Virus record (IMG/VR): IMGVR_UViG_3300000101_000095
Span: 1-30,499 of that record
Length of the DNA stretch: 30,499 bases
DNA from: a virus
Strand: one strand, 5' to 3'
Positions 2,468 to 22,059 of this stretch are shown in pieces. The position numbers were made by a program, and so were the translations under genes. Numbering within the stretch: position 1 is the first letter of the stretch; each line of letters starts with the position of its first letter. The notes beneath the pieces were generated by a model. It saw only the letters and a list, made by a program, of their open reading frames with translations. It did no database searches and was not told the DNA's origin.

Positions 2468-3274
2468 ATGAATAGAATACTACTCTTACTGCTATTAACA
2501 CTATTAACAGGATGTGCTTCTTTTCAAGTTAGCACTTTAAATCATGACCCAATATACTCTATTGAAGGCTCTGATGCTGAAATAACGGTAATTGATAATG
2601 AGTTTGAACTTCAACGATTACTTAGAACAGACTTTAACTTTAGATATGACTTTGCTCAATACGCAATAAGCCAACCTAGATCGTTTGATTGGAACAATAG
2701 AGTACTAGGTAATAGATATAGCTTTTATAATCCTTACTACAGCAGAACACAAATGTGGAATGATTGGGTCTGGGGTTATAATTGGAATTCACCTCATAGA
2801 TGGTCACCATTTGGATATGATCGATGGGGATATAACAACTATGGATACGGAATGGGTTGGTCGTATAGCTGGAACAATAGGCGTTGGTCAAGCAACAGTT
2901 GGAATAATACTTATGGGTGGAATAATCATTACGGATGGAATACCGGTAATAATTGGTTTTACGGTAATAATTATAATAGAAGAACAGCTACATCCAATAT
3001 AAACGGGAATCGAGGAAGAGTAGTGCAAACAGTAACAAGAAGTAGAAGAACAGTTAATACGAATAACAATGATAAAATTATCAGACTTAATACTAGAACA
3101 ATCAGACCGACCGAAAGCAGTAATAATGGCAGGAGGGGGAGGAGTAGGCAAATCGTACCTACTAAACCAGTTATCATTAGACAGCCTCCAACAGTACAAC
3201 CCAGACAAATACGTAGAGGATCCGGATCACCCGTATTACAACAAACTAGGTCCCGCATCAAACCAGGTAGCTAA
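2468..3274 (+). CDS. Predicted secreted lipoprotein, W/N/Y/G-rich
   Basis: The 268-aa product starts with a classic lipoprotein signal peptide: M-N-R, a leucine-rich stretch, then the lipobox L13-T-G-C16. Cys16 is the expected lipidated residue, placing the mature protein on a bacterial membrane. After an ordinary region (20-85) the chain becomes extremely rich in Trp, Asn, Tyr and Gly (about 90-170), then Arg/Asn-rich and finally Arg/Pro-rich. I recognise no enzymatic motif. Phage-coded lipoproteins are known to alter the host surface, for example T5 Llp blocks its own receptor, so superinfection exclusion is a reasonable guess but only that. The last 68 codons overlap the next gene in another frame; the low-complexity tail looks like an extension read over that gene. 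The neighbours are replication and internal-protein genes. Confidence 0.75.
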   Translation: MNRILLLLLLTLLTGCASFQVSTLNHDPIYSIEGSDAEITVIDNEFELQRLLRTDFNFRYDFAQYAISQPRSFDWNNRVLGNRYSFYNPYYSRTQMWNDWVWGYNWNSPHRWSPFGYDRWGYNNYGYGMGWSYSWNNRRWSSNSWNNTYGWNNHYGWNTGNNWFYGNNYNRRTATSNINGNRGRVVQTVTRSRRTVNTNNNDKIIRLNTRTIRPTESSNNGRRGRSRQIVPTKPVIIRQPPTVQPRQIRRGSGSPVLQQTRSRIKPGS

Positions 3275-4010
3275 AGATGTAGCAGCAGCTACCGGAGATA
3301 AGCAAAGCTTCGTTTGGGATACAACTGCATCAGGAACTAGGTTTATGTCTCAACTAGAGACTATGATAACTAGTGGATACGATATCTATATGGTTATGGT
3401 ATATGCCCATCCTATGATTTCATACGCTGCAAACTTCGAACGTTCAGAAAGATCTCTACCATCAGTAGCAGTCTTTTCAACTTGGAGGAATGCTTACCAA
3501 TTGATAGGAGAGTATCAAGAAAAGCTGAAAGGTAACTTATCAATCTATGTAAGTGATAGAGGAGGAAAATACTCTAAAGAAGTAGAAGACTTTAATAAAG
3601 CTGCAGAAGCAGGTGTAGATGGTATAAAAGAATACCTAACAGCATATAATGAAGAAACAGGAGCAGGAAAGTCAACATTCTTTAAACCAGTAGAAATGTC
3701 TAAAGAAGAGGAAACTGCGTTCAACCAAGCAATACAGAATGTAGAGTTTGATAACAATAACCGATCAGAAGATAAAGCAGTAAAAACAGTATTTTTAAAG
3801 GCATTTCAAAAGAACGGAGTTAGCCCCGGGGATGATAAGTTAAAAGCTGCAGTAAAGAAATATAGAGAAAATAAAGAAAAGTCTGATCAAAAAAATAATG
3901 ATATCTTAGAGAATATAGCAGAAATGTTATTTAGCCCTACATTCCAAGAACTATTAAAACATTCAGAGGTAGGAGAAATAGATAGAAACGTACAAGCATT
4001 TTTAGCATGA
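3069..4010 (+). CDS. P-loop kinase (zeta-toxin/AAA_33-like) with candidate capsid-targeting tag
   Basis: The 313-aa protein has a clear Walker A motif G22-G-G-G-V-G-K28-S-Y after a short V-I-M strand. Further on come a W-D-T-T pattern like the substrate loop of zeta-toxin and AAA_33 kinases, a Y-M-V-M-V-Y strand, and an Arg-bearing F-E-R-S-E-R lid-like helix. It is probably a small-molecule or nucleic-acid end kinase; the substrate cannot be read. The chosen start at 3069 lies 206 nt inside the lipoprotein gene. It is supported because it gives MIKLSDLILE|Q, with Glu at residue 10 as in the T4 IPIII capsid-targeting sequence, and because Walker A follows immediately. No later Met would retain Walker A except M20, directly before it. 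The C-terminal third is lysine-rich and helical. Its stop overlaps the next start as ATGA. Confidence 0.78.
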   Translation: MIKLSDLILEQSDRPKAVIMAGGGGVGKSYLLNQLSLDSLQQYNPDKYVEDPDHPYYNKLGPASNQVAKDVAAATGDKQSFVWDTTASGTRFMSQLETMITSGYDIYMVMVYAHPMISYAANFERSERSLPSVAVFSTWRNAYQLIGEYQEKLKGNLSIYVSDRGGKYSKEVEDFNKAAEAGVDGIKEYLTAYNEETGAGKSTFFKPVEMSKEEETAFNQAIQNVEFDNNNRSEDKAVKTVFLKAFQKNGVSPGDDKLKAAVKKYRENKEKSDQKNNDILENIAEMLFSPTFQELLKHSEVGEIDRNVQAFLA

Positions 4011-5656
4011 TAGCACTTTATCCCGGAGCTTACAAACCTCCACACAGAGGACATTTTAATGTAGTTAAGTCTCTTTTAGATAATTCATATAATGGATCAG
4101 TCTACGATAAGGATAACTATAAAGAAACCGGAACAGAACTTCTTAAGGGTAGAAGTACCAATAAACCAAAGGTAGATAAGGTATTAGTTTTTGTAGGAGC
4201 AGGTGAGAGAAACGGTATAACTAAGGAAGAGTCAATGTCTATTTGGAATATATACGCTAAGTATTTAGGAAATGTAGAAATATTAGACGGCGGTTCAAAC
4301 CCAATGTTTGCTGCAAAAGATTATGCCCAAGCTAACCCTAAATTAGAATTTGTCTCTGTAACAGGAATTAGAGGAGATAAAGATTTTGTTGACTTAAGAA
4401 GAGTTACCACATTTAAAAATGCTCCTAATGTAAACGGTTTAGCTTTAGCAGCAGAACCTGGATCAGGAATTAGAGCTACTGATTTCAGAAACACAATACT
4501 TTCAGGTAATTTAGATAAGGTTTTAGATTTTTTTCCTGAAGTTCTGCCTAAAGAAGAAATACTAAGCATATTAACAGACCTGAAAGATAAAATAGTATCT
4601 GAGGTATTAGCAAATAGTATCGAAGGATTTATTGATAATTACTTCATCAAAGAAGATACTGTAAATGAAATCGGAGATTTATCTCAAGAGCCATATAAAT
4701 GGTCAGCCTTCGCTAAACCCAAAGATTCCTCAGACCCTTATACGTATTATGACTTTAATACAGATAATGGCACTAAGTATCAAGTTATATTTAATCGAGA
4801 AGAATTCGGTAAGACAGTTAATTACGATATGTCATTTGTAGCTAAAGGTAAAGACGGTAAAGGATTCTCTGCAGATGCTCTTACTGGAGATAATGAACCA
4901 TTAAAGGTTATGTCTACAATAGTTGACATTACAAGAGAACAAATTAAGAAGGCTGGAGATGTTGAGTTTATTACATTCGAACCTACCAAAGGCAAATCAG
5001 GAGAAGAAGGAGCTAAAGGAAATACTCGAAGTAAGTTATATAAAATTATCATTAAGAAAAACTTTCCAAAAGCAAACGTTAGTGGAACAGACACTGTAGT
5101 TGTAGATATGACAGCATATTTAAACAATGACTTAAAAGAAGCAGTTGTAGGTGATAAAATCGAATGTGACAATTGTGATTGGAGTTGGGATATATCAAGT
5201 GGTGGAGATGATCTACATATATGCCATAAATGTGGACATGATAATGAACCTGCAGACAGTACAGAAGCAAAACTTGAATTAAAAGACTACATAGCATCAT
5301 TAACTGAGTACATGATAGATCAGGGTATGAATATAGTACCTCTTCCAGAAGTATTAATAAGGAAAGATGAAGTAAATGCTTCAAACTTTTTCGGAAGAAC
5401 AGCGTACTATGATCCTAATGCTAAAGAAATAGTAATATATACCACAGGAAGACATGATAAAGATATAGTAAGATCCTTTTCTCACGAAATGATCCACCAT
5501 ATGCAGAACCTAGATGGAACTCTTCACAATATATCGACACAGAATACTAATGAAGACGGTAAACTTTTAGAATTAGAAAAAGAAGCATACCTTTTAGGTA
5601 ATATTACTTTTCGAAACTGGGAAGATAATTTAAAAAATATAGAAGGAAAAAACTAA
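4007..5656 (+). CDS. Nucleotidyltransferase / zinc ribbon / HExxH metallopeptidase fusion
   Basis: This 549-aa protein joins unrelated domains. Residues 1-200 form a cytidylyltransferase-like nucleotidyltransferase: P-G-A-Y-K-P-P-H13-R-G-H16 is the HxGH ATP-binding motif, and S-G-I-R-A-T-D-F-R (153-161) matches the second nucleotide-binding motif of NMNAT-type enzymes. Residues about 225-375 are an unrecognised module. A zinc ribbon follows (C387/C390 and C406/C409), then a metallopeptidase-like domain with H493-E-M-I-H497 and a downstream E-K-E-A helix that may supply the third ligand. Hydrophobic-x-Glu sites, V-N-E221 and L-K-E378|A, fall between the domains, as expected if the prohead protease splits it. 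It is coupled by ATGA to the P-loop kinase, suggesting sequential kinase and adenylyl or cytidylyl transfer. Substrates of transferase and peptidase are unknown. Confidence 0.8.
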   Translation: MIALYPGAYKPPHRGHFNVVKSLLDNSYNGSVYDKDNYKETGTELLKGRSTNKPKVDKVLVFVGAGERNGITKEESMSIWNIYAKYLGNVEILDGGSNPMFAAKDYAQANPKLEFVSVTGIRGDKDFVDLRRVTTFKNAPNVNGLALAAEPGSGIRATDFRNTILSGNLDKVLDFFPEVLPKEEILSILTDLKDKIVSEVLANSIEGFIDNYFIKEDTVNEIGDLSQEPYKWSAFAKPKDSSDPYTYYDFNTDNGTKYQVIFNREEFGKTVNYDMSFVAKGKDGKGFSADALTGDNEPLKVMSTIVDITREQIKKAGDVEFITFEPTKGKSGEEGAKGNTRSKLYKIIIKKNFPKANVSGTDTVVVDMTAYLNNDLKEAVVGDKIECDNCDWSWDISSGGDDLHICHKCGHDNEPADSTEAKLELKDYIASLTEYMIDQGMNIVPLPEVLIRKDEVNASNFFGRTAYYDPNAKEIVIYTTGRHDKDIVRSFSHEMIHHMQNLDGTLHNISTQNTNEDGKLLELEKEAYLLGNITFRNWEDNLKNIEGKN

Positions 5657-8352: not shown

Positions 8353-11300
8353 ATGACTTACGAAGAATTAAAAACACGTTTAACCTCTGTTGAAACAACA
8401 CTACATCAACTACAAACAGCAGAATCTAAAGCGCTAACTACAACCTACGTAGAAGACTCTATAAAGCAGTTAAACATAGTACGTGAAAATATACTCTCAA
8501 AAATGAAAATATTAGAAGAAGGAGACGAAACTATGTTCGTTTCAACAAAAGGTGGAGACACTAAAGCAGTTCAGATGGATAGAAAAGCAGCAATGGACTT
8601 AAAAAAAGATCCAGCTATCACAGGAATAGATACAGCTAAAGGAGCAAAAATTAAAGAAGATGAAGGAATAAAGTTCTCTAAAGATGAAACAAAATCAATT
8701 GCTAAGTCAGTCGGTAAAGCACTAATTAAAGCTCTTAAGAAAGCAGGAGACGAAGTAGCAAGAATTAAAGCACATCGTTTAGAAGAAGGGAGTTTTGATA
8801 TACACATTATATACAAAGGTGAAAGTGGAGAAGACGAGTTTTCTTTTTATATTACTGATGATACGTTACACCTTGTAGATTTCTCTTTTGATAAAAAATT
8901 AGTAGAAGTAGGGGTTAAACCTTCCGGAGAAGCAATTGTTAATATAGATGTACTAGCAAACGAATTTATGAAACACTTCAGATCCTTAAACGAAGGAGAT
9001 TATGACCCAGACCAAATGCAAAAAGACGATGAAGAAGATCATGGAGTAGGTTACGACGATGAAGGTCGTCCATTAGGAGAAGGGTACGAAGATACAAAAG
9101 GTAAAGCACTTTATCCTATACTTAAAGCAGGTGCTAATGCAACCGGAGATGAAGTTGAAATGTACGTAAAATCATTAGCTAAAGATATTGAGTTAAATGG
9201 TAAAGAGCAGTACAAGGAGTTCACATCAGATGATTATGTTGAAGATTTTAAAAACTATATTGCTGATAAATCATTAAATGAAGGTGAAGGAGATGATCAT
9301 CATTATATTAAAGTAAAAGCACACGACTATAAGAAGGCTATGGCTATCTTAGATCAGAACGTAGATCCAACTTATGTTAAGATGGAGGTTGTTGACAATG
9401 ACGGAGCCGGTAATGTTATTATATACTTTATATTTAAACATGAAGCTGGTTTTGACGACATGTATGATGACTCAGAAAACCCAGATTCAGAATTTTATCA
9501 AGAACCAGATGAAGATCCACAAGCATTTATTTATGATGTAGTAATGGACTTAAGAGCAAACGATATCGAATTAGCAGATCATTCAGCAGATATGGATGAA
9601 GCAGTAGATAATAGTGATTGGGCTATGAAAATTCGTAATATCAACCAACACGGAAGACAAATGAAAAAGTTGGATAAAATGAAAAAAGTTACACCAAAAA
9701 TTAATCCCGACTATAAAAAAGCAATTGGTATCTCTCCTAGAGTAAAAGCAATCATAGATAAACTTGAAGCTAAAAGGGCTCAAGTGATGAGAGACATGGA
9801 GCAAGAGGCAGAACCACAAGGAGGACCTATTTCTGACAAATATGGAGACATGTTAAACAAGATAGATACTGCACTTGAAAAAGCAAGAGGTGGAAAAGTA
9901 GTTCACTATGATGACAGGCAGGTAGATACAAGTACAAATGAAAATGCAATAGATCCAGCAGAATATGGAGATATAGGTAAAGGATACCTTGCAGGATTTA
10001 AAAAACAACATACATTATCCTTAGATCAATTAGAGCAATTAGGCCGTAAGATAGTTAAGCAAATATATAAAGGAGACTTTCAAGCAGCAAAAGCTAAACA
10101 CCTTAGTGAGGCAGGATTTCCTGATGATAGTTTATTTACTTTTGGATTTGATTTAGATGAAATACAGTACGTAGTTGATTACTTACAAGCTAACTATTCA
10201 GAACAAGACTACGAACTTCATGTAGGAAGAGGAGATACTCATCCAAATGCAGTTACTTTAATTAATCCAAAAATGGAATATGATGCTGAACTAGGAGACT
10301 TATTAGATGGAGCAAAAGGAAGTGATCAAACAGACTATGAGGACTACCGCAGAGAAGAAGATGACTATGCCAATAATGAACTTCCAGAAGAAACTAAGAA
10401 GCTTAACGAATCAGCTTCTAGAGATTTAGATGAAATTTTTGGAGCATTAGGATATAGACAAGGTTTTGACGAATTTATAGAAGACAATCCTGGATGTGTA
10501 GAAGTAATAATGGAATGGATCGGAGGAATATCTGATTTTCAAGAAAAATTATCTCAAGAATACGATAATGAAGAGTTAGAAAATTTAGGATTTTACTTTG
10601 GCGATGATGATTATAACGAATCACTTCAAGAAGGAAGAGGAGATCTAGACACTATCGTAAGAGTAATTACTGATATGGCTAATGAAGACGGCATAACACC
10701 TAAAGAAGCAGCATTAGAAATAATAGAAGCAATTAGAGATGCATATATAATTGATGCTTACGATGAAGGAGTTGTCAAAGAATCACTTAATCCAGAAGTA
10801 TCAAAATCAGTAGATCGTTTTATCAAAGCAATGGCTAAGAGATACGGATATGGAGATCAAGATGCTGTATATGCTATCATGGCAGCTTTAAAACAAAGAA
10901 ACTTTGATGGAGTTAAAGAAGGAGACGGTCTATGGGCTAATATAAATGCTAAGAAGAAAAGAGGTGAAAAAGCATCTCACGGTAATTCAAAAGCATTTAA
11001 GGCAGCTAAAAAGGCAGGAAAAGCTTTAGCAAAGACTAAAGAAAGTGTATTAAAAGAATATACAGATCAAAGTTTTAAAGGCTCAGAAGTAATAGACGAT
11101 GCTAATAAGCGAGGACCAGATATGTTCGGAAAAGGTATATTTGCAGAGCTACTACCTAAAGGAGTTGCTAGTGAAAACGATGCTGTAGAGGCTTTAAAGA
11201 AACATGATAAGAGCGGTATTAAAGCAAGAATGGGACAATATGCACCAATGTTTGTTCACCTTCAATATCATGACATAGAGCATGAAGGCGTGGACTACAG

Positions 11301-12381
11301 AATGCATCAAACACAGTACTACAATAGTAACTTTAAAGATAAAGATCCAGACTTTAATCCTGCAGTATCTAAAATTACTTTATTCAAAGTTCTTGAAAAA
11401 GCTGCTTCTCACCGAGAAAGTAATAAAGAAGAAAACTTAGGTACTATTATTGTTAAGACAGCTGAGTACGTACAAGATCTTAGAAACTTACCTGGATTAG
11501 GGAAAAGAGTTAGTGAAGTAGTTAATGAATTAGATGGCAATAAATCAAAAGAGTTAGTGAAAAAAGCAGTAGCTGATATTAATGGAGCAATGTTTAATTT
11601 CAGACATTCAAATCCATTAAAAATGATTGCTGCTAAAGATAAAGACTTAAAGGTTAAATTAGATGCAATGCATAATGCTATATTTGATTTAGAAAAAGTA
11701 CTAAAAGCTAAGAATATAACAGAAGCTAAAGGAGGTCAAATTATGCCTGGAGATTATGTTAAAAATCAACACGGTAATATTTACCAAAGAGTAGATGGAA
11801 AAGTTGGTAAACATGATGCTTATGTTAGAGTCACTAACGGTAAAGCAGGTAAAAAGAAAACTGGCTTACATGACTCTTTTAAACTAACCTTAGTGAATAA
11901 AAGTGAATTAACAGAAGCATCAGTAGTAGAGCAATCCTGTAAAGTAGGAGACATTTTAACTAAAGATGGAAAAAAAGGAAAAGTAATTAAGCATTCAGAA
12001 ACACAAGCTACTGTAGACTTTGGAAACGGAGATGTATACGGTATAGCACATAGTAGAATCAAAGACGGTAAGATATTAAAAGAAGCTACTAGACAAGATT
12101 TAGGAATGTCTTCCTCAGTATCTAAACGTAGAGCTAAAGCAGAACTTAAGAAACCTGGAAATGATGGTTCTAAGGTATACGGATTAGATAAAGAAGGCAA
12201 AAGAGTTCATATTAAAAATATCAATGACGTAGATAAATTTAAGAAGTTTGAACTTGACGCTGATTTGAATGAAGTAATAAAGGAAGAAGCTACTTGCTGC
12301 GGTAAATGTGGTAGAGTGCACGTTAAAGGTAACTGTAAAAGACCTTACCTAAAAGGAGCTAAACACTGTAGAACTAAATAA
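8353..12381 (+). CDS. Giant modular protein, predicted internal-head polyprotein
   Basis: The largest product in the window (1342 aa) is acidic and clearly modular. It has a helical N-terminus (1-56), then many segments divided by hydrophobic-x-Glu sites followed mostly by Gly, Ala or Ser: Glu at 56, 145, 214, 243, 310, 586, 686, 760, 810, 856, 902, 1124, 1188, 1244 and 1307. T4 gp21 protease cuts after (I/L)-x-E, so the gp21-like protease coded downstream could split it into many pieces. Recognisable pieces are weak: a beta-rich KOW/SH3-like segment near 1195-1235 and a C-terminal Cys/His cluster (C-C-G-K-C-G ... C ... H-C) that may bind zinc. Segments 531-588 and 761-810 recur in the 821-aa protein. 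It is too long and irregular for a classical scaffold. Function unknown; the polyprotein reading is inference. Confidence 0.72.
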   Translation: MTYEELKTRLTSVETTLHQLQTAESKALTTTYVEDSIKQLNIVRENILSKMKILEEGDETMFVSTKGGDTKAVQMDRKAAMDLKKDPAITGIDTAKGAKIKEDEGIKFSKDETKSIAKSVGKALIKALKKAGDEVARIKAHRLEEGSFDIHIIYKGESGEDEFSFYITDDTLHLVDFSFDKKLVEVGVKPSGEAIVNIDVLANEFMKHFRSLNEGDYDPDQMQKDDEEDHGVGYDDEGRPLGEGYEDTKGKALYPILKAGANATGDEVEMYVKSLAKDIELNGKEQYKEFTSDDYVEDFKNYIADKSLNEGEGDDHHYIKVKAHDYKKAMAILDQNVDPTYVKMEVVDNDGAGNVIIYFIFKHEAGFDDMYDDSENPDSEFYQEPDEDPQAFIYDVVMDLRANDIELADHSADMDEAVDNSDWAMKIRNINQHGRQMKKLDKMKKVTPKINPDYKKAIGISPRVKAIIDKLEAKRAQVMRDMEQEAEPQGGPISDKYGDMLNKIDTALEKARGGKVVHYDDRQVDTSTNENAIDPAEYGDIGKGYLAGFKKQHTLSLDQLEQLGRKIVKQIYKGDFQAAKAKHLSEAGFPDDSLFTFGFDLDEIQYVVDYLQANYSEQDYELHVGRGDTHPNAVTLINPKMEYDAELGDLLDGAKGSDQTDYEDYRREEDDYANNELPEETKKLNESASRDLDEIFGALGYRQGFDEFIEDNPGCVEVIMEWIGGISDFQEKLSQEYDNEELENLGFYFGDDDYNESLQEGRGDLDTIVRVITDMANEDGITPKEAALEIIEAIRDAYIIDAYDEGVVKESLNPEVSKSVDRFIKAMAKRYGYGDQDAVYAIMAALKQRNFDGVKEGDGLWANINAKKKRGEKASHGNSKAFKAAKKAGKALAKTKESVLKEYTDQSFKGSEVIDDANKRGPDMFGKGIFAELLPKGVASENDAVEALKKHDKSGIKARMGQYAPMFVHLQYHDIEHEGVDYRMHQTQYYNSNFKDKDPDFNPAVSKITLFKVLEKAASHRESNKEENLGTIIVKTAEYVQDLRNLPGLGKRVSEVVNELDGNKSKELVKKAVADINGAMFNFRHSNPLKMIAAKDKDLKVKLDAMHNAIFDLEKVLKAKNITEAKGGQIMPGDYVKNQHGNIYQRVDGKVGKHDAYVRVTNGKAGKKKTGLHDSFKLTLVNKSELTEASVVEQSCKVGDILTKDGKKGKVIKHSETQATVDFGNGDVYGIAHSRIKDGKILKEATRQDLGMSSSVSKRRAKAELKKPGNDGSKVYGLDKEGKRVHIKNINDVDKFKKFELDADLNEVIKEEATCCGKCGRVHVKGNCKRPYLKGAKHCRTK
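9943..10116 (+). repeat. Shared module A, first copy (within the 1342-aa gene)
   Basis: Codons 531-588 encode a 58-aa module (I-D-P-A-E-Y-G-D-I-G start; G-D-F-x-A-A-K-A-K near the end, then L-S-E|A). The same module is at 20491-20664 with about two-thirds identical residues by eye, and both copies finish at a hydrophobic-x-Glu|Ala site. Confidence 0.8.
10630..10780 (+). repeat. Shared module B, first copy (within the 1342-aa gene)
   Basis: Codons 760-809 encode a helical 50-aa module starting G-R-G-D-L-D and ending D-E-G-V-V. Within it 10651-10775 aligns without gaps to 21088-21212 in the 821-aa gene, with 3 mismatches in 125 nt by my count. It is bounded by L-Q-E|G before and V-K-E|S after. 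Confidence 0.88.
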
Positions 12382-12382
12382 T

Positions 12383-13504
12383 ATGCATAAATTAGAGAAA
12401 CTTATATTAGAATCATTTGCAGAACTAACTGAAGAAAGAGAAGCAAAAACTCTAGGATTAGAGGAACTTCCTAAATCATTTAGAGCAAGTATTGAGAAAA
12501 GATACGGCGTTTCAAAATGGCCTGAAAAAGACTTTGTATCTTCAGATATGAAAACATATTTTAAAACTACATCTGTGGAGCCATCAACAGGTAACATAGG
12601 ACATAAACCTATTTCTTTACCTTCTTTTGAAGAGTTATATAGTAACTTCTCAGATATCGTAGGAGACATTAAAGGACTAATGGGCAACCAGGATATTAGG
12701 ACAGATAAAAAAGCTAGAGAGTTATTTGAATTAATTAAAACTAATTTCAGGAAACTGCAAAGGTACCTCAGAAACGAAAGACCTGACCAGTATGAGCTTA
12801 TGAAAATGAGACGCTCTATGGAAGAAGCAGTAGGTGATTTAGTTAAGTTAAAAGATAAGAACGGTAAAGGAGAAGAGCATGAAATTGAATCCGAGTTTAC
12901 AGATAGCCATAAACAAGACTTCTTTACTGTAAAAGGTAAGAAAGGTATATATGATAAACTAGACATAGTAAAGGAAGAAGGTGAAAAGAATGCAGTATTA
13001 GAAGATGCTACGGATATTATGATAAATAAATTCCCAACATTAAAAGCAGCTATTATTAAACTACAGACTGAAGATTTTAAATCATTTGTTAACTCAATTG
13101 ACTGGGTATCACCAAGACCTACAGCTTTTAAGGTAAACTTAACTAACGGACAGAGCTACACTTTAAAATGGTTAGGAGAAGGCTTCGAAGCACAGATACT
13201 AGGAAAAAGGTACTATATTAATAAAGTCAATGAATACCAACAGGCACTAGATAAATTAGCAGTACTGTATAAAGAAGGTCCAATTAAATCAGCAGAAGAA
13301 CCAGCAGAAACAGATACTGACTCCGGAAGCGGAGGAGGAAGCGGAGGAGACTTCCCGGGTGAAGATGGAGGTTCAACAGGAGGAGATAGCGGAGACTTAC
13401 CAGCAGATTTAGGAGGAGAAGAAACAGGAGAAGAAGGTGGAGGAGCTGATCTAACAGACGAACCAGTTGACTTTGAAGAACCAGCAGAAGAACCAGAAGC
13501 ATAA
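12383..13504 (+). CDS. Unknown 373-aa protein with capsid-tag-like N-terminus and acidic Gly-rich tail
   Basis: The protein begins MHKLEKLILE|S, with Glu at residue 10 as in the T4 IPIII targeting tag, and a second possible site (E-L-T-E) soon after. The middle (about 75-160) is helical and charged; about 240-290 looks beta-rich (T-A-F-K-V-N-L, Y-T-L-K-W-L, K-R-Y-Y-I-N). The last 60 residues are a low-complexity tail of Gly, Ser, Asp, Glu and Pro, comparable in style to acidic tails of single-strand-binding or scaffold proteins. I recognise no family. It begins 2 nt after the giant gene's stop, so they are co-transcribed. No enzyme motif is visible; an internal-head or DNA-binding role is only a guess from tag and tail. 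Confidence 0.7.
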   Translation: MHKLEKLILESFAELTEEREAKTLGLEELPKSFRASIEKRYGVSKWPEKDFVSSDMKTYFKTTSVEPSTGNIGHKPISLPSFEELYSNFSDIVGDIKGLMGNQDIRTDKKARELFELIKTNFRKLQRYLRNERPDQYELMKMRRSMEEAVGDLVKLKDKNGKGEEHEIESEFTDSHKQDFFTVKGKKGIYDKLDIVKEEGEKNAVLEDATDIMINKFPTLKAAIIKLQTEDFKSFVNSIDWVSPRPTAFKVNLTNGQSYTLKWLGEGFEAQILGKRYYINKVNEYQQALDKLAVLYKEGPIKSAEEPAETDTDSGSGGGSGGDFPGEDGGSTGGDSGDLPADLGGEETGEEGGGADLTDEPVDFEEPAEEPEA

Positions 13505-15001: not shown

Positions 15002-16576
15002 ATGGCACAAGACATAAAAAAAATAATAGCACAAGAGTATATCAAGTGTGCTAAAGATCCAGCATATTTTATGCGGAAATACTGTTATATACAGCACCCT
15101 ACCAGAGGACGTATATTATTTAATCTATACCCCTTCCAGGAAAAAGTACTACATCTTTTTAGAGATAATCAATACTTAATTACTTTAAAATCTAGACAGT
15201 TAGGTATCTCTACTCTAGCAGCAGCATATAGTCTATGGTTAATGTTATTTCATAAAGATAAGAACGTACTTGCTTTAGCAACTACTCAAGCAACTGCACG
15301 TAACTTAGTTTCTAAAACTATGTTTATGTATGACCAGTTACCTAAATGGTTAAAGCTGCCTGCAGTAGAAAAAAATAAACTATCTTTAAGGTTAAAAAAT
15401 GGATCTAAAATTACAGCTAAATCTTCTAACGCCGACGCTGCAAGGTCAGAGGCAGTATCATTACTACTTATCGATGAAGCAGCCTTTATTGATAACATTC
15501 AAGAAACGTTTACAGCAGCACAACAAACGCTAGCTACAGGTGGACAATGTATGGCTTTATCAACACCTAACGGTATAGGAAACTGGTTTCACCAAACTTG
15601 GGATAAAGCAGAATCAGGTGAAAATAGTTTTTTACCTATTAAGTTACCTTGGACAGTACATCCTGAAAGAAATCAAAAATGGAGAGAACAACAAGATCAA
15701 GATTTAGGTCCACGTATGGCAGGACAAGAATGCGATTGTGATTTCTTAGCATCCGGGGATACAGTATTTGAACCAGATGATATGATGTTCTATGAACAAA
15801 CTTACTTAAAAGAGCCTTTAGAAAAAAGAGGAGTAGATACTAATTTATGGATTTGGGAAGGTGTGGACTATACTAAATCGTATATGGTAGTAGCAGATGT
15901 AGCTAGAGGAGATTCTGCTGATTACTCTGCATTCCATATTTTTGACGTTGAAACTTGTACACAAGTAGGAGAATATAAAGGCAAACTTTCACCTAAAGAT
16001 TACGGAAACGTACTTGTAGGTATAGCAACAGAGTACAACCAAGCACTTTTAGTAGTTGAAAATGCAAACATAGGATGGGCTACTATAGAGCAGATAATGG
16101 AAAGACAGTATAGTAATTTATATTATAGCTCTACCTCTCAAATGGAAACAGTAGAATCATATATGTCCAAATTTGAAAGAGATAAACTAGTACCCGGATT
16201 TACAATGTCAGTTCGTACAAGACCACTTGTCATAGCTAAAATGATAGAGTATATTAGGGAAAGAGGTGTCACTATACAATCTAAGAGGTTAATAGGTGAA
16301 ATGAGAGTATTTGTATGGAAGAATGGAAAACCACAAGCACAGATTAACTACAATGATGACTTACTAATATCATGTGCAACAGCACTATACGTAAGAGATA
16401 CAGCATTAAGATTAAGACAACAGGGTATGGACTTAGCAAGAGCACAACTATCCTCCTTTCAGAATCTTAACGCAAAAAATAAAGCTGTAATGAAATCAGT
16501 TGGAAGTCAGCAAAATAATCCTTATCTTATAGATAACGGCTTTGGTGAACAAGAAGATATATCTTGGTTATTATAA
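15002..16576 (+). CDS. Terminase large subunit (T4 gp17-like)
   Basis: The 524-aa motor packages DNA into the prohead and cuts concatemers. The ATPase half shows K63-S-R-Q-L-G-I-S-T71, a deviant Walker A in which Ile takes the usual Lys place, as in many terminases of this group; Walker B L-L-L-I-D158-E159-A; and the coupling motif A-L-S-T-P-N-G. The nuclease half has V-V-A-D299-V-A-R-G-D, V-V-E353-N-A-N and N-D-D-L-L-I-S (452/453), matching the T4 gp17 acidic triad. It is shorter than T4 gp17 (610 aa), mainly at the N-terminus. The portal gene follows after 42 nt, so the sheath and tube genes (18, 19) that separate them in T4 are absent here. Confidence 0.95.
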   Translation: MAQDIKKIIAQEYIKCAKDPAYFMRKYCYIQHPTRGRILFNLYPFQEKVLHLFRDNQYLITLKSRQLGISTLAAAYSLWLMLFHKDKNVLALATTQATARNLVSKTMFMYDQLPKWLKLPAVEKNKLSLRLKNGSKITAKSSNADAARSEAVSLLLIDEAAFIDNIQETFTAAQQTLATGGQCMALSTPNGIGNWFHQTWDKAESGENSFLPIKLPWTVHPERNQKWREQQDQDLGPRMAGQECDCDFLASGDTVFEPDDMMFYEQTYLKEPLEKRGVDTNLWIWEGVDYTKSYMVVADVARGDSADYSAFHIFDVETCTQVGEYKGKLSPKDYGNVLVGIATEYNQALLVVENANIGWATIEQIMERQYSNLYYSSTSQMETVESYMSKFERDKLVPGFTMSVRTRPLVIAKMIEYIRERGVTIQSKRLIGEMRVFVWKNGKPQAQINYNDDLLISCATALYVRDTALRLRQQGMDLARAQLSSFQNLNAKNKAVMKSVGSQQNNPYLIDNGFGEQEDISWLL

Positions 16577-16618: not shown

Positions 16619-18508
16619 ATGGCAGATAAATCACTATTTGGAAGACTACAAAGACTCTTCTCTTCTGATGTAATCATTAGAAACATTGGAGGTACTGAAT
16701 TAAAAGTAGCAGATGTTAATCAAATACAGACTACTGGAAATTTTGAAACTAACTCTTTAGTTGATAGATTCTCTAGATTACATATATATAATAATAAAAA
16801 TTTATTTAATCCTAGCATTAATTACCAAACTCTTCGTATACAATTATACTCGGACTATGAAGCAATGGATACAGACCCTATTATAGCATCAGCATTAGAT
16901 ATACTTGCTGACGAAGCTACACTAAAGAATGATATGGGGGAAGTACTATCAATAAAATCCTCAGATGAAAACCTTCAAAGAGTTCTTTATAATTTATTTT
17001 ACGACGTATTAAACATTGAGTTTAATTTATGGTCTTGGGTTAGAGGAATGTGTAAGCATGGAGATTATTTCTTAAAATTAGAAATAGCAGAAAAATTTGG
17101 TGTATACAATGTACTTCCCTATACTGTTTATAATATGAACAGACACGAAGGTGCTGACCCAGAGGAACCATCTAAAGTTACTTTTACAATAGATCCAAAT
17201 GGATTAGCATCTACTCAAGATCCTAATTATATTCCTAAAAGAGATAATAATGTTATAGCATTAGATAATTACGAAGTAGCTCACTTTAGACTTATATCGG
17301 ACCACCAGTACCTTCCTTACGGTAGATCCTTTATTGAACCAGCTAGAAAAATATACAAACAACTTACTTTAATGGAAGATGCGATGTTAATACATCGTAT
17401 TATGAGAGCTCCTGAAAAAAGAACATTCTTTGTAAATGTAGGTTCTATACCTCCAGCAGAAGTTGATCAGTTTATGCAAAAAACTATCAACACTATGAAA
17501 AAGACTCCTTATGTTGATCCAAAAACCGGACAATATAATTTGAAGTTTAATATGCAAAATATGATGGAAGACTTCTATATCCCAGTTAGAGGTGGAGATG
17601 CTTCTACTAGAATAGAGACTACCAAAGGACTAGACTACGATGGAACAAATGATATTCAATATCTACAAGCTAAAATGTTTGCTGCTCTTAAAATACCAAA
17701 AGCATATTTTGGATATGAAGGAGATTTAAGCGGTAAAGCTACATTAGCAGCAGAAGATATTAGATTTGCTAGAACAGTCGAAAGAATTCAAAAAATCGTA
17801 GAATCTGAATTAACTAAAATAGCACTAGTTCATCTATACACTCAAGGCTTTACAGGAGAAAGCTTAACAAACTTTGAAATAAACCTTACTAACCCGTCAG
17901 TAGTATACGAACAAGAAAAAGTAGCACTGCTAAAAGAAAAAATAGATTTAGCAAATCAAATGAAAGACTCTAAGATGTTCTCTACAGATTATATATACGA
18001 TAATATATTTAATTTATCTGAAGATCAATATAATGAAATGAGAGATTTAGTACGTGAAGATGCTAAAAGGACATTTAGAGTTGCTCAAGTAGAAGCAGAA
18101 GGAAACGATCCAGCAAAATCAGGAAGATCCTACGGTACACCTCACGATTTAGCATCCATGTACGGAAGAAGAGCTACATCAACAGAGAAAGGTGGAGGAC
18201 CTGGTAGCGTCCCTCCTGGATATAACGAGATAGGGCCTGAAGGAGGAAGACCTAAAGAAAAAGCATCGATATACGGTACAAATAATGATCCCATGGGTGG
18301 AAGAGATAGATTAGGAGTTCACGGTATGCACGGAGGATTCGAATCAGACAATGAAAATGTTGCTGAAACAAACACAACTAAAGCTCAAACTATATATCAT
18401 CAAATAAAAGATTCTTTTAATCAAAAGAAAGAAATGATATTTGAAGAGCAAAAAGAAACCACTTCTAAACTATTAGATGAAAATCAACTTAAAGATTTAG
18501 AGGACTAA
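16619..18508 (+). CDS. Portal protein (T4 gp20-like)
   Basis: The 629-aa protein should form the dodecameric ring at the unique vertex through which DNA is packaged and to which the neck attaches. Gene order terminase-portal-protease-scaffold-capsid supports this, as do T4-portal features in the chain: an early Y-S-D-Y-E-A-M-D-T-D-P-I-I-A-S-A-L-D segment, a central crown/wing region, and near 365-400 the conserved G-D-L-S-G-K-A-T-L-A-A-E-D-I-R-F-A segment with a following long helix. Length is higher than T4 gp20 (524 aa), with a Gly/Pro-rich stretch and a charged helical tail at the C-terminus (about 500-629). Start is at ATG 16619 without a Shine-Dalgarno sequence. Confidence 0.94.
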   Translation: MADKSLFGRLQRLFSSDVIIRNIGGTELKVADVNQIQTTGNFETNSLVDRFSRLHIYNNKNLFNPSINYQTLRIQLYSDYEAMDTDPIIASALDILADEATLKNDMGEVLSIKSSDENLQRVLYNLFYDVLNIEFNLWSWVRGMCKHGDYFLKLEIAEKFGVYNVLPYTVYNMNRHEGADPEEPSKVTFTIDPNGLASTQDPNYIPKRDNNVIALDNYEVAHFRLISDHQYLPYGRSFIEPARKIYKQLTLMEDAMLIHRIMRAPEKRTFFVNVGSIPPAEVDQFMQKTINTMKKTPYVDPKTGQYNLKFNMQNMMEDFYIPVRGGDASTRIETTKGLDYDGTNDIQYLQAKMFAALKIPKAYFGYEGDLSGKATLAAEDIRFARTVERIQKIVESELTKIALVHLYTQGFTGESLTNFEINLTNPSVVYEQEKVALLKEKIDLANQMKDSKMFSTDYIYDNIFNLSEDQYNEMRDLVREDAKRTFRVAQVEAEGNDPAKSGRSYGTPHDLASMYGRRATSTEKGGGPGSVPPGYNEIGPEGGRPKEKASIYGTNNDPMGGRDRLGVHGMHGGFESDNENVAETNTTKAQTIYHQIKDSFNQKKEMIFEEQKETTSKLLDENQLKDLED

Positions 18509-18537: not shown

Positions 18538-19392
18538 ATGAAGATAAAACATTCAAAGTTTAAAAATACTGGTTTAATTTACGAACTGTTGGTTAAACAA
18601 ATAGCTGCTGATACATTGTCAAAGAATGAATCAGCCGCAGTAGGTATATTAAAAAAGTACTTCGGCGGAAATACTGTAATAGCAAAAGAGCTAAAACTGT
18701 ACGAATATATACTTAAAAATAATAGCCTTAGCGAAGCTAGAGCCGAAACAGTAGTTTCTACTATAACAGAAATATCTAGAAAACTTAATCAAAAAAGTTT
18801 AAAGGAATTTAAATATAAACTTATTTCTGAAATTAAAGAAAACTATAACATCGAAGACTTCTTCGCAATTCAGGTGAGAGATTATAAACCTTTAGCTGCT
18901 CTATATTGTTTATTAGAAGCACAAAATAATAATACCTTAGTTAACCCTGAATTTTTAGTTAATAATAAATTAACTGTATTAGAGCATTTAACATCAACAG
19001 AAGTTGATAAAGAATCAGTTAAAGATACATTGATAGAAGAGTATTCTAAATATGATAAAGATTTAAGATTATTAACATATAAGATACTATTAGAAAAATT
19101 TAATTCTAACTACAAAGACCTTCTACCAGAACAAAAAAATATTCTAAAAGAATTTATTACTTCGGTAAACTCTAAAACAAGGCTAAGGACTTTAGTTAAT
19201 GAAGAAGTAGAGAAGATCAGAAAAGAAGTAGACATACTAGCAGATAAGATCAAAGACGAAGTAATAAAAATAAAATTACAGGAAGTAACTAAAGGTATTA
19301 AAACTTTAAAGAAAACTGATAAAATTAATGATAACCACCTTATTAACTTAATGCAATATTACGATCTAGTAAACGAAATGCGTAAACTATGA
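18538..19392 (+). CDS. Helical 284-aa protein between portal and protease, probable head-assembly protein
   Basis: The product is almost entirely helical and very rich in Lys, Glu, Leu and Ile. It starts with a basic segment (H-S-K-F-K-N-T-G-L-I-Y-E-L-L-V) and has no enzyme motif. In T4 the place between portal and protease is held by the small prohead core genes 67 and 68, so a role in head core or scaffold is a positional inference; I see no sequence likeness to either. Several L-x-E positions occur (for example S-L-S-E|A) but no clean N-terminal tag. Its stop overlaps the next start as ATGA, so the following tagged protein is co-translated. Confidence 0.7.
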   Translation: MKIKHSKFKNTGLIYELLVKQIAADTLSKNESAAVGILKKYFGGNTVIAKELKLYEYILKNNSLSEARAETVVSTITEISRKLNQKSLKEFKYKLISEIKENYNIEDFFAIQVRDYKPLAALYCLLEAQNNNTLVNPEFLVNNKLTVLEHLTSTEVDKESVKDTLIEEYSKYDKDLRLLTYKILLEKFNSNYKDLLPEQKNILKEFITSVNSKTRLRTLVNEEVEKIRKEVDILADKIKDEVIKIKLQEVTKGIKTLKKTDKINDNHLINLMQYYDLVNEMRKL

Positions 19393-19610
19393 AACGTAGT
19401 AAATTAATTAAAGCAGTAAGAGAAGTTATAGAAGAAATGAGTACGACAGCTGGAGTAGGTGGCTATCAAACTCCATTTGCTTTTAAAAAAGGCAATAGCA
19501 AAAATAGCGCAACTAAACAAGCTGAAAGGCTTGGTTATAAAACTGTGAAACAAAAAAAAAGACCTTATAACACTAAAATGTTTGATTATCTAGATGAAAA
19601 CGTTAACTGA
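19389..19610 (+). CDS. Small basic protein with capsid-tag-like N-terminus
   Basis: The 73-aa protein begins with the amphipathic stretch MKRSKLIKAVREVIEE, holding V-R-E12 and I-E-E16, much like the 66-aa protein at 7489-7689. After this comes S-T-T-A-G-V-G-G-Y-Q-T-P-F-A-F, a Gly/Thr-rich linker, and then a strongly basic body (K-Q-K-K-R-P). It sits among head genes, overlapping both neighbours (4 nt and 17 nt). An internal head protein processed by the adjacent protease and bound to packaged DNA is the best explanation. T4 gene 67/68 products are similarly small, but I see no direct resemblance. Confidence 0.65.
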   Translation: MKRSKLIKAVREVIEEMSTTAGVGGYQTPFAFKKGNSKNSATKQAERLGYKTVKQKKRPYNTKMFDYLDENVN

Positions 19611-22059
19611 AAAATACAGAGGAGTACTAAACGAAACTTTTAATAAAAAGCAATTTGTTAGAGATGCTCGCATGGCATGGCCAAATTTAATATCTCAATT
19701 CAACGGATTTGAAGATACCATACAGATCCTTAAACAGAAAGGAATGATCTTTGAAGCTCCTAAAAAGGAAGTAGAAGTGCACAACTTATCTGATGAAGCG
19801 ATAAGAAGGGGTACGGATTACGAACTTGAAGCTATGGGCTTGATGTCTCAAGATAAAATCTCAGAAGAAGACCAGGTGAAAGCTAAAGATAAAGCAATTA
19901 AAAATTTAGAAAAAGATTCTCTACACTATATTAATATATTATCAGGAGAATCTTCTAAAGTAGATAAGCACGATAAATCTGTTGAAGCTAAAAAAGGAAA
20001 TGAGGTAGATACTTTCAACGGGATGAAAAAAGCTGAACTAAAAGAGAACTACACTAAAGAAAAGCTTCTAAAAAGATTAGGTGATGCAGACGATGCACGC
20101 ATTCAAACAGGAAATGGAAGAGAGTATATAATTTATAATCCTAATTCTAACAATGACGACAATGCTGCAATGTGGCATGATACCTCAGTTTTTGCCTTAG
20201 ATAGAGACGGAGGCGAGCATGAAATAGATTATACAGATATAGGATTGGTTATGGTACAAGAAAGTAACCAAGAAGAAGCAATTGCTAATTTTATTATTAA
20301 ACATTATACAAACCCTAAAACAGGTAAGAGTATAATTGATGATGAAATTATAGGTGACTTTTTCAAAACTCACCCTGAATCAAGAAACCAAGAACCTCAA
20401 GATGCATTAGACAACTTTGAAGAATTCTTATCAGTAAATTACGAATTACCTGGAGACTACATGCAAGAAAAAGTTGCTAACTCTGTAGAAGACGTAATCG
20501 ACCCAGCAGACTATGGAGCAATTGGAGCTGGATATCTAAAAGGGTTTAATAGACCTCATTCACTTAACCTTGATCAATTAGAAACGTTAGGAAGAAAAGT
20601 AGTAGACAGCCTCTATAAAGGAGACTTTGATGCAGCTAAAGCTAAATTTGTAGGTGAAGCAGCGATAAATGTAGAAGATGTAACACAAGAAGCTATGTCT
20701 GATCAACAAATGAAAGATATAGAAAAGTACGGTCAAGAGGATAAGGTAGTTAAAGTATTTAAACCTGGAGATAAATTCTCCACAGACTTTGATTACGAAG
20801 GTATGTTAGAGTTTGGATTAAAAGTAAGACTTAACACACCTATTAATACCCTACAAGCTTTATTTGACTCATTTGAAGATGTAAACTATCACTCAGAAGG
20901 AAGCCATTTATCTTATGCAATAGATGCTATAAAAGAAAGAGATAAAGTTGAAGCTTTAGATCATTTAAGAAGCTTTAAAAAAGCAATTAAGAATACATTA
21001 GTCAGTTTTAATGAAGGAGCTGATCCTAATAGGAATCAACTAGAAGAGACAGAAGCAGTAATTGATGAAGGTAGAGGGGATTTAGATACTATCGTAAGAG
21101 TTATTACTGATATGGCTAATGAAGACGGCATAACACCTAAAGAAGCAGCTTTAGAAGTAATAGAAGCAATTAGAGATGCATATATAATTGATGCTTACGA
21201 TGAAGGAGTTGTTAATGAAGGAAGAAAATCCAAAACATACGGCAAGATATCAGAAGGTAGAAGAAAAAAATCTACTGGAGGTAAAGTTGTTACTGAAAAC
21301 GATTATGAAACTGGAGGATATGTTGAAAGTATGGGACCTTTATTTGATAAAGGTGTTAACCTGTTAATAAAAGCTTGGGAAGAGTGGAAGATGGGACCAA
21401 TGACAGAGCCGGGTATGATAGAATTCGCTAAAAAAGACGTACTTAATTACTTAGAAACTCAATTTATGGTTGAGAATCTAGAAGAAAAGAAAGGAAAAGA
21501 TCACGATGGTGATGGAGATGTAGACGGAGACGATTACATGGCAGCAAAAGATAAAGCTATTAAGAAAGCAACAGGTAGAGATAAAATAGTTAAAGAAAAT
21601 ATTAAAGCTATTATTACTAAGGTACTAGAAGAAGGTACTATAAATGAAGCAGCAACTAACGAACTAGCTAAATTTGCAGATCAGTACGGAGGATTCGCAG
21701 GAATGAAGCAAGCTATTATTCAACTACAAGACGTAGTAACAGATATAGAATCATATTACGACAAAACAAGAAATAAGATACAGAAAGTATACGATACATT
21801 GGGTGATATTAGAAATGAAGAAGGATTAAAGGTTGGAGGTTTTTTAGCTCCTTCTATTGAATCAGCATTCAATAAAGACCTAAGACCGGTTACTAAAGCA
21901 GGATTTACTAAAGGGTTAGATACACCTAAAGTTAAAGTTATATCTCAAAGAGATATAGACAGAAACAACTCAGGTGAAGCTCCACTAGGAGAAGATGAAA
22001 AACCAACAGTATTCTCACCTCCTGTAAACGGAACATTAAGAGAAGGTAATAAACAATAA
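19594..22059 (+). CDS. 821-aa modular protein, predicted processed internal-head polyprotein
   Basis: This protein lies directly before the prohead protease. The N-terminus reads MKTLTE...GVLNE|T (Glu 14), tag-like. Hydrophobic-x-Glu sites followed by small or polar residues occur at Glu 151, 355, 492, 542, 554, 680, 685, 800 and 817, cutting the chain into apparent modules. Residues 300-357 and 492-542 repeat modules of the 1342-aa protein. Residues 636-647 (DHDGDGDVDGDD) form an EF-hand or dockerin-like calcium loop, followed by a basic helix. The last 130 residues are helical then Pro-rich. Composition is acidic. The location matches T4 core-protein genes, so it may be an assembly core component, a packaged polyprotein, or both. 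Exact function is unknown. Confidence 0.72.
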   Translation: MKTLTEKYRGVLNETFNKKQFVRDARMAWPNLISQFNGFEDTIQILKQKGMIFEAPKKEVEVHNLSDEAIRRGTDYELEAMGLMSQDKISEEDQVKAKDKAIKNLEKDSLHYINILSGESSKVDKHDKSVEAKKGNEVDTFNGMKKAELKENYTKEKLLKRLGDADDARIQTGNGREYIIYNPNSNNDDNAAMWHDTSVFALDRDGGEHEIDYTDIGLVMVQESNQEEAIANFIIKHYTNPKTGKSIIDDEIIGDFFKTHPESRNQEPQDALDNFEEFLSVNYELPGDYMQEKVANSVEDVIDPADYGAIGAGYLKGFNRPHSLNLDQLETLGRKVVDSLYKGDFDAAKAKFVGEAAINVEDVTQEAMSDQQMKDIEKYGQEDKVVKVFKPGDKFSTDFDYEGMLEFGLKVRLNTPINTLQALFDSFEDVNYHSEGSHLSYAIDAIKERDKVEALDHLRSFKKAIKNTLVSFNEGADPNRNQLEETEAVIDEGRGDLDTIVRVITDMANEDGITPKEAALEVIEAIRDAYIIDAYDEGVVNEGRKSKTYGKISEGRRKKSTGGKVVTENDYETGGYVESMGPLFDKGVNLLIKAWEEWKMGPMTEPGMIEFAKKDVLNYLETQFMVENLEEKKGKDHDGDGDVDGDDYMAAKDKAIKKATGRDKIVKENIKAIITKVLEEGTINEAATNELAKFADQYGGFAGMKQAIIQLQDVVTDIESYYDKTRNKIQKVYDTLGDIRNEEGLKVGGFLAPSIESAFNKDLRPVTKAGFTKGLDTPKVKVISQRDIDRNNSGEAPLGEDEKPTVFSPPVNGTLREGNKQ
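20491..20664 (+). repeat. Shared module A, second copy (within the 821-aa gene)
   Basis: Codons 300-357 match the 58-aa module at 9943-10116 along its length without gaps (I-D-P-A-D-Y-G-A-I-G ... G-D-F-D-A-A-K-A-K), ending at V-G-E|A. Many substitutions separate the two copies, unlike module B. Confidence 0.8.
21067..21222 (+). repeat. Shared module B, second copy (within the 821-aa gene)
   Basis: This is the second copy of the helical 50-aa module, bounded by I-D-E|G and V-N-E|G. 21088-21212 matches 10651-10775 with 3 mismatches in 125 nt by my count, so the copies separated recently or are kept alike by gene conversion. Confidence 0.88.

Follow-up and report, generated by a model that had tools for sequence, protein, structure and literature searches.

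Does one long gene of a marine T4-related phage furnish many head-internal proteins at once? According to the T4 model, each head-internal protein comes from a gene of its own. The window, meaning the whole 30,499 nt stretch of DNA analyzed here, encodes a 1342 aa protein (P0001) which a first-pass annotation had read as a head polyprotein processed by a gp21-type protease. Mosaic versions of P0001, spanning most of its length, are encoded by about 70 related viral contigs in IMG/VR. Taken together, the evidence makes it likely that this ORF specifies a head-internal polyprotein of about 12-15 exchangeable cassettes (ca. 30-270 aa), all with (L/I/V)-x-E at the end. The genes concerned are as follows (a slash marks the position after a site Glu).

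8353..12381, + strand: candidate cassette polyprotein P0001, 1342 aa
12383..13504, + strand: 373 aa protein with leader MHKLEKLILE/S, carrying cassettes in several relatives
19594..22059, + strand: candidate second polyprotein P0002, 821 aa, in the gp67/gp68 position, with cassettes shared with P0001
21070..21219, + strand: copy 2 of a 50 aa cassette, residues 493-542 of P0002
22062..22640, + strand: gp21-type prohead serine protease, 192 aa, the presumed processing enzyme, identified by its Peptidase_S77 profile

The product of 22062-22640 is a genuine S77 family member (Peptidase_S77 PF03420, 7.3e-36; phrog_207 head maturation protease, 1.5e-54). It is encoded in the same head cluster as P0001 and shares 77% identity with the protease of the isolated Flavobacterium phage vB_FspM_immuto, whose gene order is as in the window. 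T4 gp21 cuts at L/I-x-E (PMC9026906). All 15 Glu residues originally listed as sites carry L, I or V at P3, and the claim that mostly Gly, Ala or Ser follows also holds (13 of 15, the exceptions being E902 before Y and E1307 before V). P0001 contains 29 [LIV]xE motifs in total and 15 of the form [LIV]xE[GASQ] vs 5.1 expected, a count reached by 0 of 1000 shuffles; the latter set adds residues 792 and 1193 to the original list and omits 902 and 1307. An excess is also found in P0002 (10 vs 3.5, p 0.003), a scaffold-like ORF (9 vs 3.9 expected) and the major capsid protein (6 vs 2.0 expected), and none was seen in the terminase, portal and primase of the window. With all loci pooled, terminase and other helical proteins lie 1.7-1.8x over shuffles, and the raw motif count was therefore rejected as sufficient proof and is treated as supportive. 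Many of the 29 [LIV]xE are expected randomly and some fall in helices or strands, as they would if these were chance sites in an ordinary large structural protein; this reading is extremely improbable given the [LIV]xE[GASQ] excess, and is refuted by the breakpoint coincidence and the exact cassette duplication described below.

Comparison with relatives resolves P0001 into the following segments.

8353..8520, + strand: residues 1-56, conserved helical N-terminal segment (MTYEELKxRL..., from the N-termini of relatives), ending ILEE-56/G
8521..8994, + strand: residues 57-214, best-conserved region, ending LNE-214/G (E214 in 29/29)
8995..9081, + strand: residues 215-243, acidic cassette YDPDQMQKDDEEDHGVGYDDEGRPLGE with the site at its end; a 90-96% identical peptide lies in the gp373-type gene of contig L052
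9283..10110, + strand: residues 311-586, multi-part segment (GEGDDHHY..., QVMRDMEQEAEP..., IDPAEYGDIG...) ending LSE-586
10111..10410, + strand: residues 587-686, cassette corresponding to phrog_23411, a small protein elsewhere
10633..10782, + strand: residues 761-810, 50 aa cassette GRGDLD...VVKE, with a second copy in P0002
10921..11058, + strand: residues 857-902, basic cassette GLWANINAKKK... (pI 10.3), ending LKE-902/Y
11059..11517, + strand: residues 903-1055, folded cassette ending VSE-1055 (E1055 in 21/21)
11725..12084, + strand: residues 1125-1188 and 1189-1244, pair of small basic β-rich cassettes
12085..12285, + strand: residues 1245-1311, basic cassette ATRQDLGM..., with related copies in the gp373-type gene of contig L046
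12286..12381, + strand: residues 1312-1342, exchangeable Cys/His tail CCGKCGRVHVKGNCKRPYLKGAKHCRTK

Breakpoints at the motif, together with Glu-to-Glu duplication and exchange, bear out the idea that each stretch between two (L/I/V)-x-E sites is a unit of its own. Of 276 unique homology-block breakpoints, 43% have [LIV]-x-E within 4 aa where 16% would be expected (z = 12.0). Roughly one in two mapped breakpoints lies off the motif, in part due to alignment fuzziness. Eight control motifs at the same breakpoints gave z = -1.3 to 3.0, and none of [LIV].D, [LIV].K, [LIV]..E, [LIV]E and [AGST].E marks them. The 150 bp cassette at 10633..10782 is identical to 21070-21219 at 141 of 150 nt (94%), and homology ends on both sides; the duplicated stretch starts one base past the codon of one presumed cleavage Glu and ends with the next Glu codon. 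In relatives this 50 aa cassette has at least 6 different left and at least 6 different right contexts, and most other cassettes likewise have many different neighbors and LxE close to most of their ends. LxE stands at both ends of the 903-1055 and 1245-1311 cassettes in 21/21 and 19/19 cases, whereas an internal segment lacking border sites, used as a control, had it near its ends in 1/35 and 7/35.

A common cassette pool is found in three gene contexts. A 311-415-type cassette has been relocated into the gp373-type gene of contig L024, residues 527-590 share 59% identity with window positions 20479-20670, and the Cys/His tail ends the gp373-type protein of L019 (78-79% identical); in immuto gp079 the Cys/His motif is internal. 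Units also stand alone: residues 569-631 of P0002 correspond to immuto gp069, where one cassette makes up a whole gene, and the 587-686 cassette is a 76 aa protein in Cellulophaga phage phiST as well as part of a 226 aa protein in L023. Immuto gp079 (841 aa) is the polyprotein N-terminal domain fused in frame with the gp373-type domain, and gp071 is encoded just ahead of the protease. Both gene fusion and fission are seen in immuto. P0002 and the gp373-type gene of relatives appear to be polyproteins of like kind drawing on one pool. Several cassettes are currently filed as separate PHROG families of unknown function. Immuto gp079, gp071 and gp069 are all annotated as hypothetical, with processing not described in the sources found, and the literature search turned up no proteomic study of immuto or phiST virions.

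Conservation and structure prediction indicate which sites are likely to be used. Glu is kept in relatives at E214 (29/29), E310 (25/25), E586 (12/13), E760 (9/9), E810 (20/20), E856 (18/20), E902 (22/23), E1124 (7/7) and E1188 (5/5); E1055, kept in 21/21, was absent from the original list. In structure models of modest quality (pLDDT 65 and 53, shallow alignments), residues 1-58 form helices 3-22 and 30-56 with pLDDT below 50 at 56-58, and of the 11 sites that could be evaluated, 10 lie in linkers predicted to be disordered. The expectation that sites lie between folds thus stands for these ten and fails at E145, which is enclosed by a predicted hairpin (135-144/147-154, pLDDT 86-92) and is Glu in just 13/28 relatives; a cut there was considered and dropped, and E145 is probably uncut. 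The same probably applies to the [LIV]xE sites at 45, 185, 603 and 792, likewise in folded or helical parts, and the motif therefore over-predicts cuts. An additional cut at KIKE-102, within the best-conserved region, is possible. The last border was first placed at LNE-1307; the segment ahead of the Cys/His cluster more probably ends at VIKE-1311, because relatives and exchanged copies have LKE, VKE or NE immediately before the cluster.

For none of the cassettes was a function or a relative of solved structure identified. Pfam and PHROGs searches with the whole protein and ten single cassettes returned just unknown families or sub-threshold matches, a PDB sequence search gave no match to E 1, and Foldseek vs PDB gave none below E 0.001. 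The top C-half Foldseek match, a phage P1 head chain (E 0.01, TM 0.15), was not trusted. The top VIA match (Z 8.5) covers a partial ferredoxin-like arrangement (313-413) and long helices (1-57), possibly a common arrangement, and a PADLOC match to GajA (E 0.008) probably arises as an artefact of helical sequence. Enzyme or peptidase domains were not detected in Pfam, PHROG or PDB searches, although the chain may hold domains of a new type.

Small genes carry leaders of 8-15 aa ending in LxE that directly precede cassettes, such as the GLWANI cassette immediately after a leader in L031:5305-5940. In 184 non-redundant proteins the LxE position peaks at residues 8-15. Within the window, genes at 12383, 22640 and 3069 carry such leaders. 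Leaders seen here include MHKLEKLILE/S, MIKLSDLILE/Q and MITLSELILE/S. T4 internal proteins combine a constant tag with a variable payload (PMC3012670), and the T4 capsid-targeting sequence (CTS) has hydrophobic residues 4, 7 and 8 and Glu 10 (PMC9026906); in our T4 control the IPII/IPIII leader reads, as expected, MKTYQEFIAE/A. The leaders here resemble the CTS in sequence, sharing with IPI-IPIII a short N-terminus ending LxE, hydrophobic 4/7/8 and Glu 10. P0001 itself starts MTYEELKTRLTSVETT, has no leader-type LxE site within its first 40 residues and, unlike IPI-IPIII, is without a clear CTS.

Mosaic proteins with conserved linkers are known, and the motif also arises in helices by chance, so P0001 might be a domain mosaic that is never cut, its (L/I/V)-x-E being recombination-tolerant short linkers and the gp21 match incidental. 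We consider this unlikely: [LIV].E alone among the motifs compared marks the breakpoints, the joints otherwise vary (LQE, IDE, VNE, VKE, MKE), the N-terminal leaders end in the same motif, and a linker role does not explain fixed P3 and P1 with a free P2.

A polyprotein cut by the prohead protease could alternatively be an enlarged prohead core or scaffold protein, similar to gp22/gp67/gp68, whose pieces exit before DNA enters and whose cassettes are filler. This possibility, which we rate as appreciable though the less probable one, has the same cleavage step and differs in product fate. P0002 lies between portal and protease, exactly the place of gp67/gp68 in T4; T4 gp22, gp67 and gp68 are each cut into several fragments (PMC9026906; PMC5694885); and the site density of gp22 is alike (12 sites vs 2.6 expected in our T4 control). 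Strong acidity of many cassettes would also fit, but others are basic or folded domains or bear the Cys/His motif, cassettes are conserved as units with up to 94% DNA identity and occur alone behind capsid-targeting-like leaders, and disposable pieces would need no precise unit-wise exchange. Further, the window already has a distinct gp22-like ORF, also acidic, at 23298-24311. Neither P0001 nor P0002 has a Pfam or PHROG core-protein match, P0002 corresponding by position alone. We somewhat favor a reading in which most products stay in the head as internal proteins, perhaps to be injected, rather than serving purely as discarded scaffold.

Resemblance to known systems is partial. P0001 and P0002 are like T4 gp22/gp67/gp68 in head-cluster genes, protease family, L/I-x-E rule and several cuts per protein (here predicted); T4 core proteins, however, are single-purpose and 80-269 aa long, whereas the proteins here, about 800-1500 aa long, are chains of exchangeable cassettes that recur in different genes. 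T4 internal proteins have one protein per leader, and here many payloads would share a chain between putative protease sites. Head proteins of SPN3US/phiKZ, processed by the gp245/gp175 protease, likewise have a Glu-ended motif and several cuts per protein, but these cuts strip propeptides off one mature protein, and cassette exchange is not reported in the available portions of these sources (PMC10052503; PMC5694885). Polyvalent proteins such as phage P1 DdrB are large and multidomain, some are head-packaged, and they are thought to be split after synthesis (PMC5512222; PMC9024508); they contain recognizable enzyme domains and, it is thought, embedded metallopeptidases, in contrast to the separate prohead protease presumed here and a chain with no known domain. 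In cyanophage ACG-2014f and Vibrio phage K566 the portal-protease interval has short ORFs only, and the long version is therefore not general among T4-like phages. Searches of mostly open-access literature found no phage head polyprotein built of cassettes.

We hypothesize that the head-internal precursor joins the prohead core and that the gp21-type protease (22062-22640) cuts after linker Glu residues as the head matures. Against this route into the head, P0001 is without the clear 8-15 aa leader of its neighbors. Once released, the cassettes, a good number of which are basic or form small folded domains, would remain with the DNA or exit the head. Cassettes could be swapped, duplicated, moved to other genes or leader-tagged with processing intact, because all start and stop at the same type of protease site. 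The wider proposal, a cassette system for head loading in which modules are strung together or leader-tagged, packaged, cut in the prohead and delivered with DNA, is put forward tentatively, at somewhat less than even probability.

One gene would probably supply at least a dozen small proteins of the head interior. If the wider proposal is true, tailed phages would have a way to deliver injected proteins as polyproteins. A cassette polyprotein would also be a different route to diversify the phage cargo carried into the host, with the protease site serving twice, as cut point and as exchange joint. Breakpoints would then reveal from evolution, with no need of biochemistry, what the prohead protease recognizes, and leaders together with cassettes would provide a rule to spot head-packaged proteins among the unannotated genes of marine phages.

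The first-pass annotation had read the 1342-aa protein (8353-12381, +) as a head polyprotein processed after (L/I/V)-x-E; this ORF and all 15 Glu residues were confirmed in the sequence. The + strand of the 30,499-base virus record carries a T4-type head cluster:

15002-16576, +, terminase
16619-18508, +, portal (Portal_T4, 1e-69)
22062-22640, +, gp21-type protease (Peptidase_S77, 7e-36)
23298-24311, +, acidic scaffold-like ORF
24342-25913, +, major capsid protein

Isolate Flavobacterium phage immuto (genus Immutovirus, L074) has a closely similar gene order, with gp079 corresponding to the 1342-aa protein and gp071 to the protein preceding the protease, each annotated as hypothetical. Given this match and 77% identity between the two proteases, the host is probably a flavobacterium. 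The acidic ORF matches immuto gp067 (L074:28448-29689), whose gene lies between those for the protease and the major capsid protein; its annotation is 'DNA polymerase phi-like protein', but a gp22-like scaffold is more likely. The major capsid protein starts with an LxE-like ladder (LLE-8, LLE, MLE, VAE, then QSSTGTG) resembling T4 gp23 and consistent with propeptide removal by the same gp21-type protease.

Passages of PMC9026906 and PMC5694885 give the gp21 cleavage rule as L/I-x-E and describe fragmentation of gp22, gp67 and gp68 in T4. [LIV]xE[GASQ] occurs 15 times in the 1342-aa protein against 5.1 expected from shuffles (0/1000 as high) and 10 times against 3.5 in a second polyprotein of 821 aa (19594-22059, +) directly 5' of the protease. 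The same comparison gave no excess in the terminase, portal and primase of the window. T4 gp22, a positive control, has 12 sites against 2.6 expected, while T4 IPII and IPIII have exactly one (MKTYQEFIAE/A; slashes mark predicted cuts). Motif counts were not taken as main evidence because terminase, like other helical proteins, also reaches 1.8x the shuffle expectation over the full set of loci.

An IMG/VR scan identified relatives at 70 loci, ranging from near-full-length orthologues to proteins with few blocks in common and differing in block order and gene location. A breakpoint was scored where a homologous block of at least 70% identity ended while both proteins continued; redundancy was removed via the flanking peptide. 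[LIV]xE lies within 6 aa of 52.5% of left block ends (22.2% expected, z 9.9) and 52.4% of right ends (21.3% expected, z 8.7), compared with z 1.9 and 1.2 for [non-LIVM]xE. Among 276 unique breakpoints, 42.8% have [LIV].E within +/-4 aa (16.3% expected, z 12.0), whereas control motifs reach z values of -1.3 ([LIV].D), 0.5 ([LIV].K), 2.3 ([LIV]..E), -0.2 ([LIV]E), 1.4 ([KR].E), 1.4 ([DE].E), -0.4 ([AGST].E) and 3.0 ([FYWM].E). Thus, gp21 specificity is recovered by evolution alone; the signed distance histogram centres on the Glu itself. Judged by these comparisons, the 1342-aa protein is a mosaic with joints at gp21-type protease motifs.

Individual cassettes, the segments between sites, illustrate this exchange. 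The 821-aa protein carries a second copy of residues 761-810 at its positions 493-542; the coding segments (10633-10782 and 21070-21219) share 141/150 nt, with 7 codon changes that are silent and 2 that alter the amino acid. Identity in the flanks drops to 2-9 matches per 15 positions, and at the left border the cleavage codon GAA is the sole codon in common. Residues 527-590 make up a second shared block, with 59% identity to 20479-20670; both copies end at a site (LSE/A and VGE/A). In further contigs, the 50-aa cassette almost always reads E/GRGD...[VI][KN]E/ and has at least 6 different left and at least 6 different right neighbours, including the Cys/His tail and the GLWANI and DHDGDGDVD cassettes. 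Across cassettes, neighbour clusters number 3-21 (left) and 2-22 (right), with LxE near most ends; for control segment 455-515, whose ends are not sites, LxE is near only 1/35 and 7/35.

Cassettes also move between genes. Four cassettes of the 1342-aa protein (Cys/His tail, ATRQDLGM, GEGDDHHY and YDPDQMQ) are also present in other contigs within proteins of the gp373 type, represented here by the 373-aa protein (12383-13504, +). Immuto gp079 fuses the N-terminal domain in frame to a gp373-type domain, with leader-like SELKEIMLE/A within the chain and the Cys/His motif mid-chain. Residues 569-631 of the 821-aa protein form a separate 75-aa gene in immuto. The 587-686 cassette has matches in a 76-aa protein of Cellulophaga phage phiST and in the central part of a 226-aa protein (L023:9677-10354). 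This 226-aa protein consists of SLRDWFKKEKW..., the 587-686 cassette and KYDTWPSAYASG..., three cassettes in all. Several PHROG families are hit along the chain, which suggests that families 23735, 23411, 727, 3477 and 38880 hold parts of the same cassette pool. Two long families, phrog_22379 and phrog_11470, each match at least 2 cassettes at separate positions, some weakly (GLWANI and AGPGF by both, DHDGDGDVD also by phrog_22379), raising the possibility of cassette polyproteins in phages beyond this group.

AlphaFold models of the two halves of the protein (36 and 29 sequences; pLDDT 65 and 53) largely bore out the expectation that sites lie in linkers. Sites 56, 214, 243, 310, 586, 686, 1124, 1188, 1244 and 1307 lie in or adjoin stretches of pLDDT <50, that is, 10/11 evaluable sites, counting site 686, which adjoins a modelled fragment end; residues 687-902, with sites 760, 810, 856 and 902, fall outside the evaluable set. 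This exceeds chance, as about one third of residues in the evaluable parts have pLDDT <50. The exception, E145, sits within a confident beta hairpin. Conservation agrees with this sorting: at least 95% of relatives have Glu at E214, E310, E810, E902 and E1055, against 46% at E145. Pfam, PHROG, PDB sequence, Foldseek and PADLOC searches returned no recognised function for any cassette. The 4007-5656 (+) protein, without Pfam match, has an immuto counterpart annotated as nicotinamide mononucleotide adenylyltransferase. Its Cys4 segment (CDNCDW...CHKCGHD) immediately follows LKE/A, and with an HExxH motif (FSHEMIHHMQN) it may also be cassette-built with a metallopeptidase-like part.

Among 184 non-redundant proteins of related loci, [LIV]xE/[ASGQ], with P2 limited to a set of residues, shows a sharp peak over residues 8-15, with 39 matches in two 4-aa bins against 0-8 per bin elsewhere. 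Examples are:

ORF at 12383, leader MHKLEKLILE/S
ORF at 22640, leader MITLSELILE/S
ORF at 3069, leader MIKLSDLILE/Q
cassette directly behind a leader, MKLAELKQLVRE/GLWANINAKKK

Such short hydrophobic leaders are common in these phages and are found in ORFs at 273, 3069, 5724, 12383, 13803, 22640 and 24342 and at many related loci. A small ORF at about 19390-19602 (+; MKRSKLIKAVREVIEEMSTTAGVGGYQTPFAFKKGN...), outside the 80-aa ORF list and between a 284-aa gene and the second polyprotein, has a similar start. The leaders resemble the T4 capsid-targeting sequence (CTS), in which hydrophobic residues 4, 7 and 8 and Glu 10 matter (PMC9026906), and would serve capsid targeting; they offer a possible means to list head-packaged proteins. 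The Zeta-toxin-like P-loop kinase at 3069-4010 (+; PF06414, 2e-10) may be head-packaged; P-loop proteins follow similar leaders in related loci (L042:6473-7408, MKLSKLILE/A; possibly L040:5293-6090, MISLINILKE/A). The 1342-aa protein carries no leader of this kind; its N-terminus is helical and conserved.

T4 has internal proteins tagged with a CTS. Several cuts per core protein are described for T4 and SPN3US in passages of PMC5694885 and PMC10052503. Large polyvalent proteins of other phages are thought to be split by their own peptidase domains (PMC5512222), whereas here a gp21-type protease is encoded in the head cluster. We found no description in the open-access papers searched of a head polyprotein with units exchanged at prohead-protease sites. 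The cluster holds a matching protease, cassettes are shared and tagged stand-alone versions exist. The 1342-aa precursor would be packaged into the prohead core and cut at gp21-type sites during head maturation, freeing a dozen or more products from one chain. T4 internal proteins are retained and injected, with anti-restriction roles (PMC12373910, PMC9391042). As cassettes are both acidic (pI 4.1) and basic (pI 9-10), the products may meet both fates, some retained and injected like T4 internal proteins and others discarded like gp22 and gp67 fragments.
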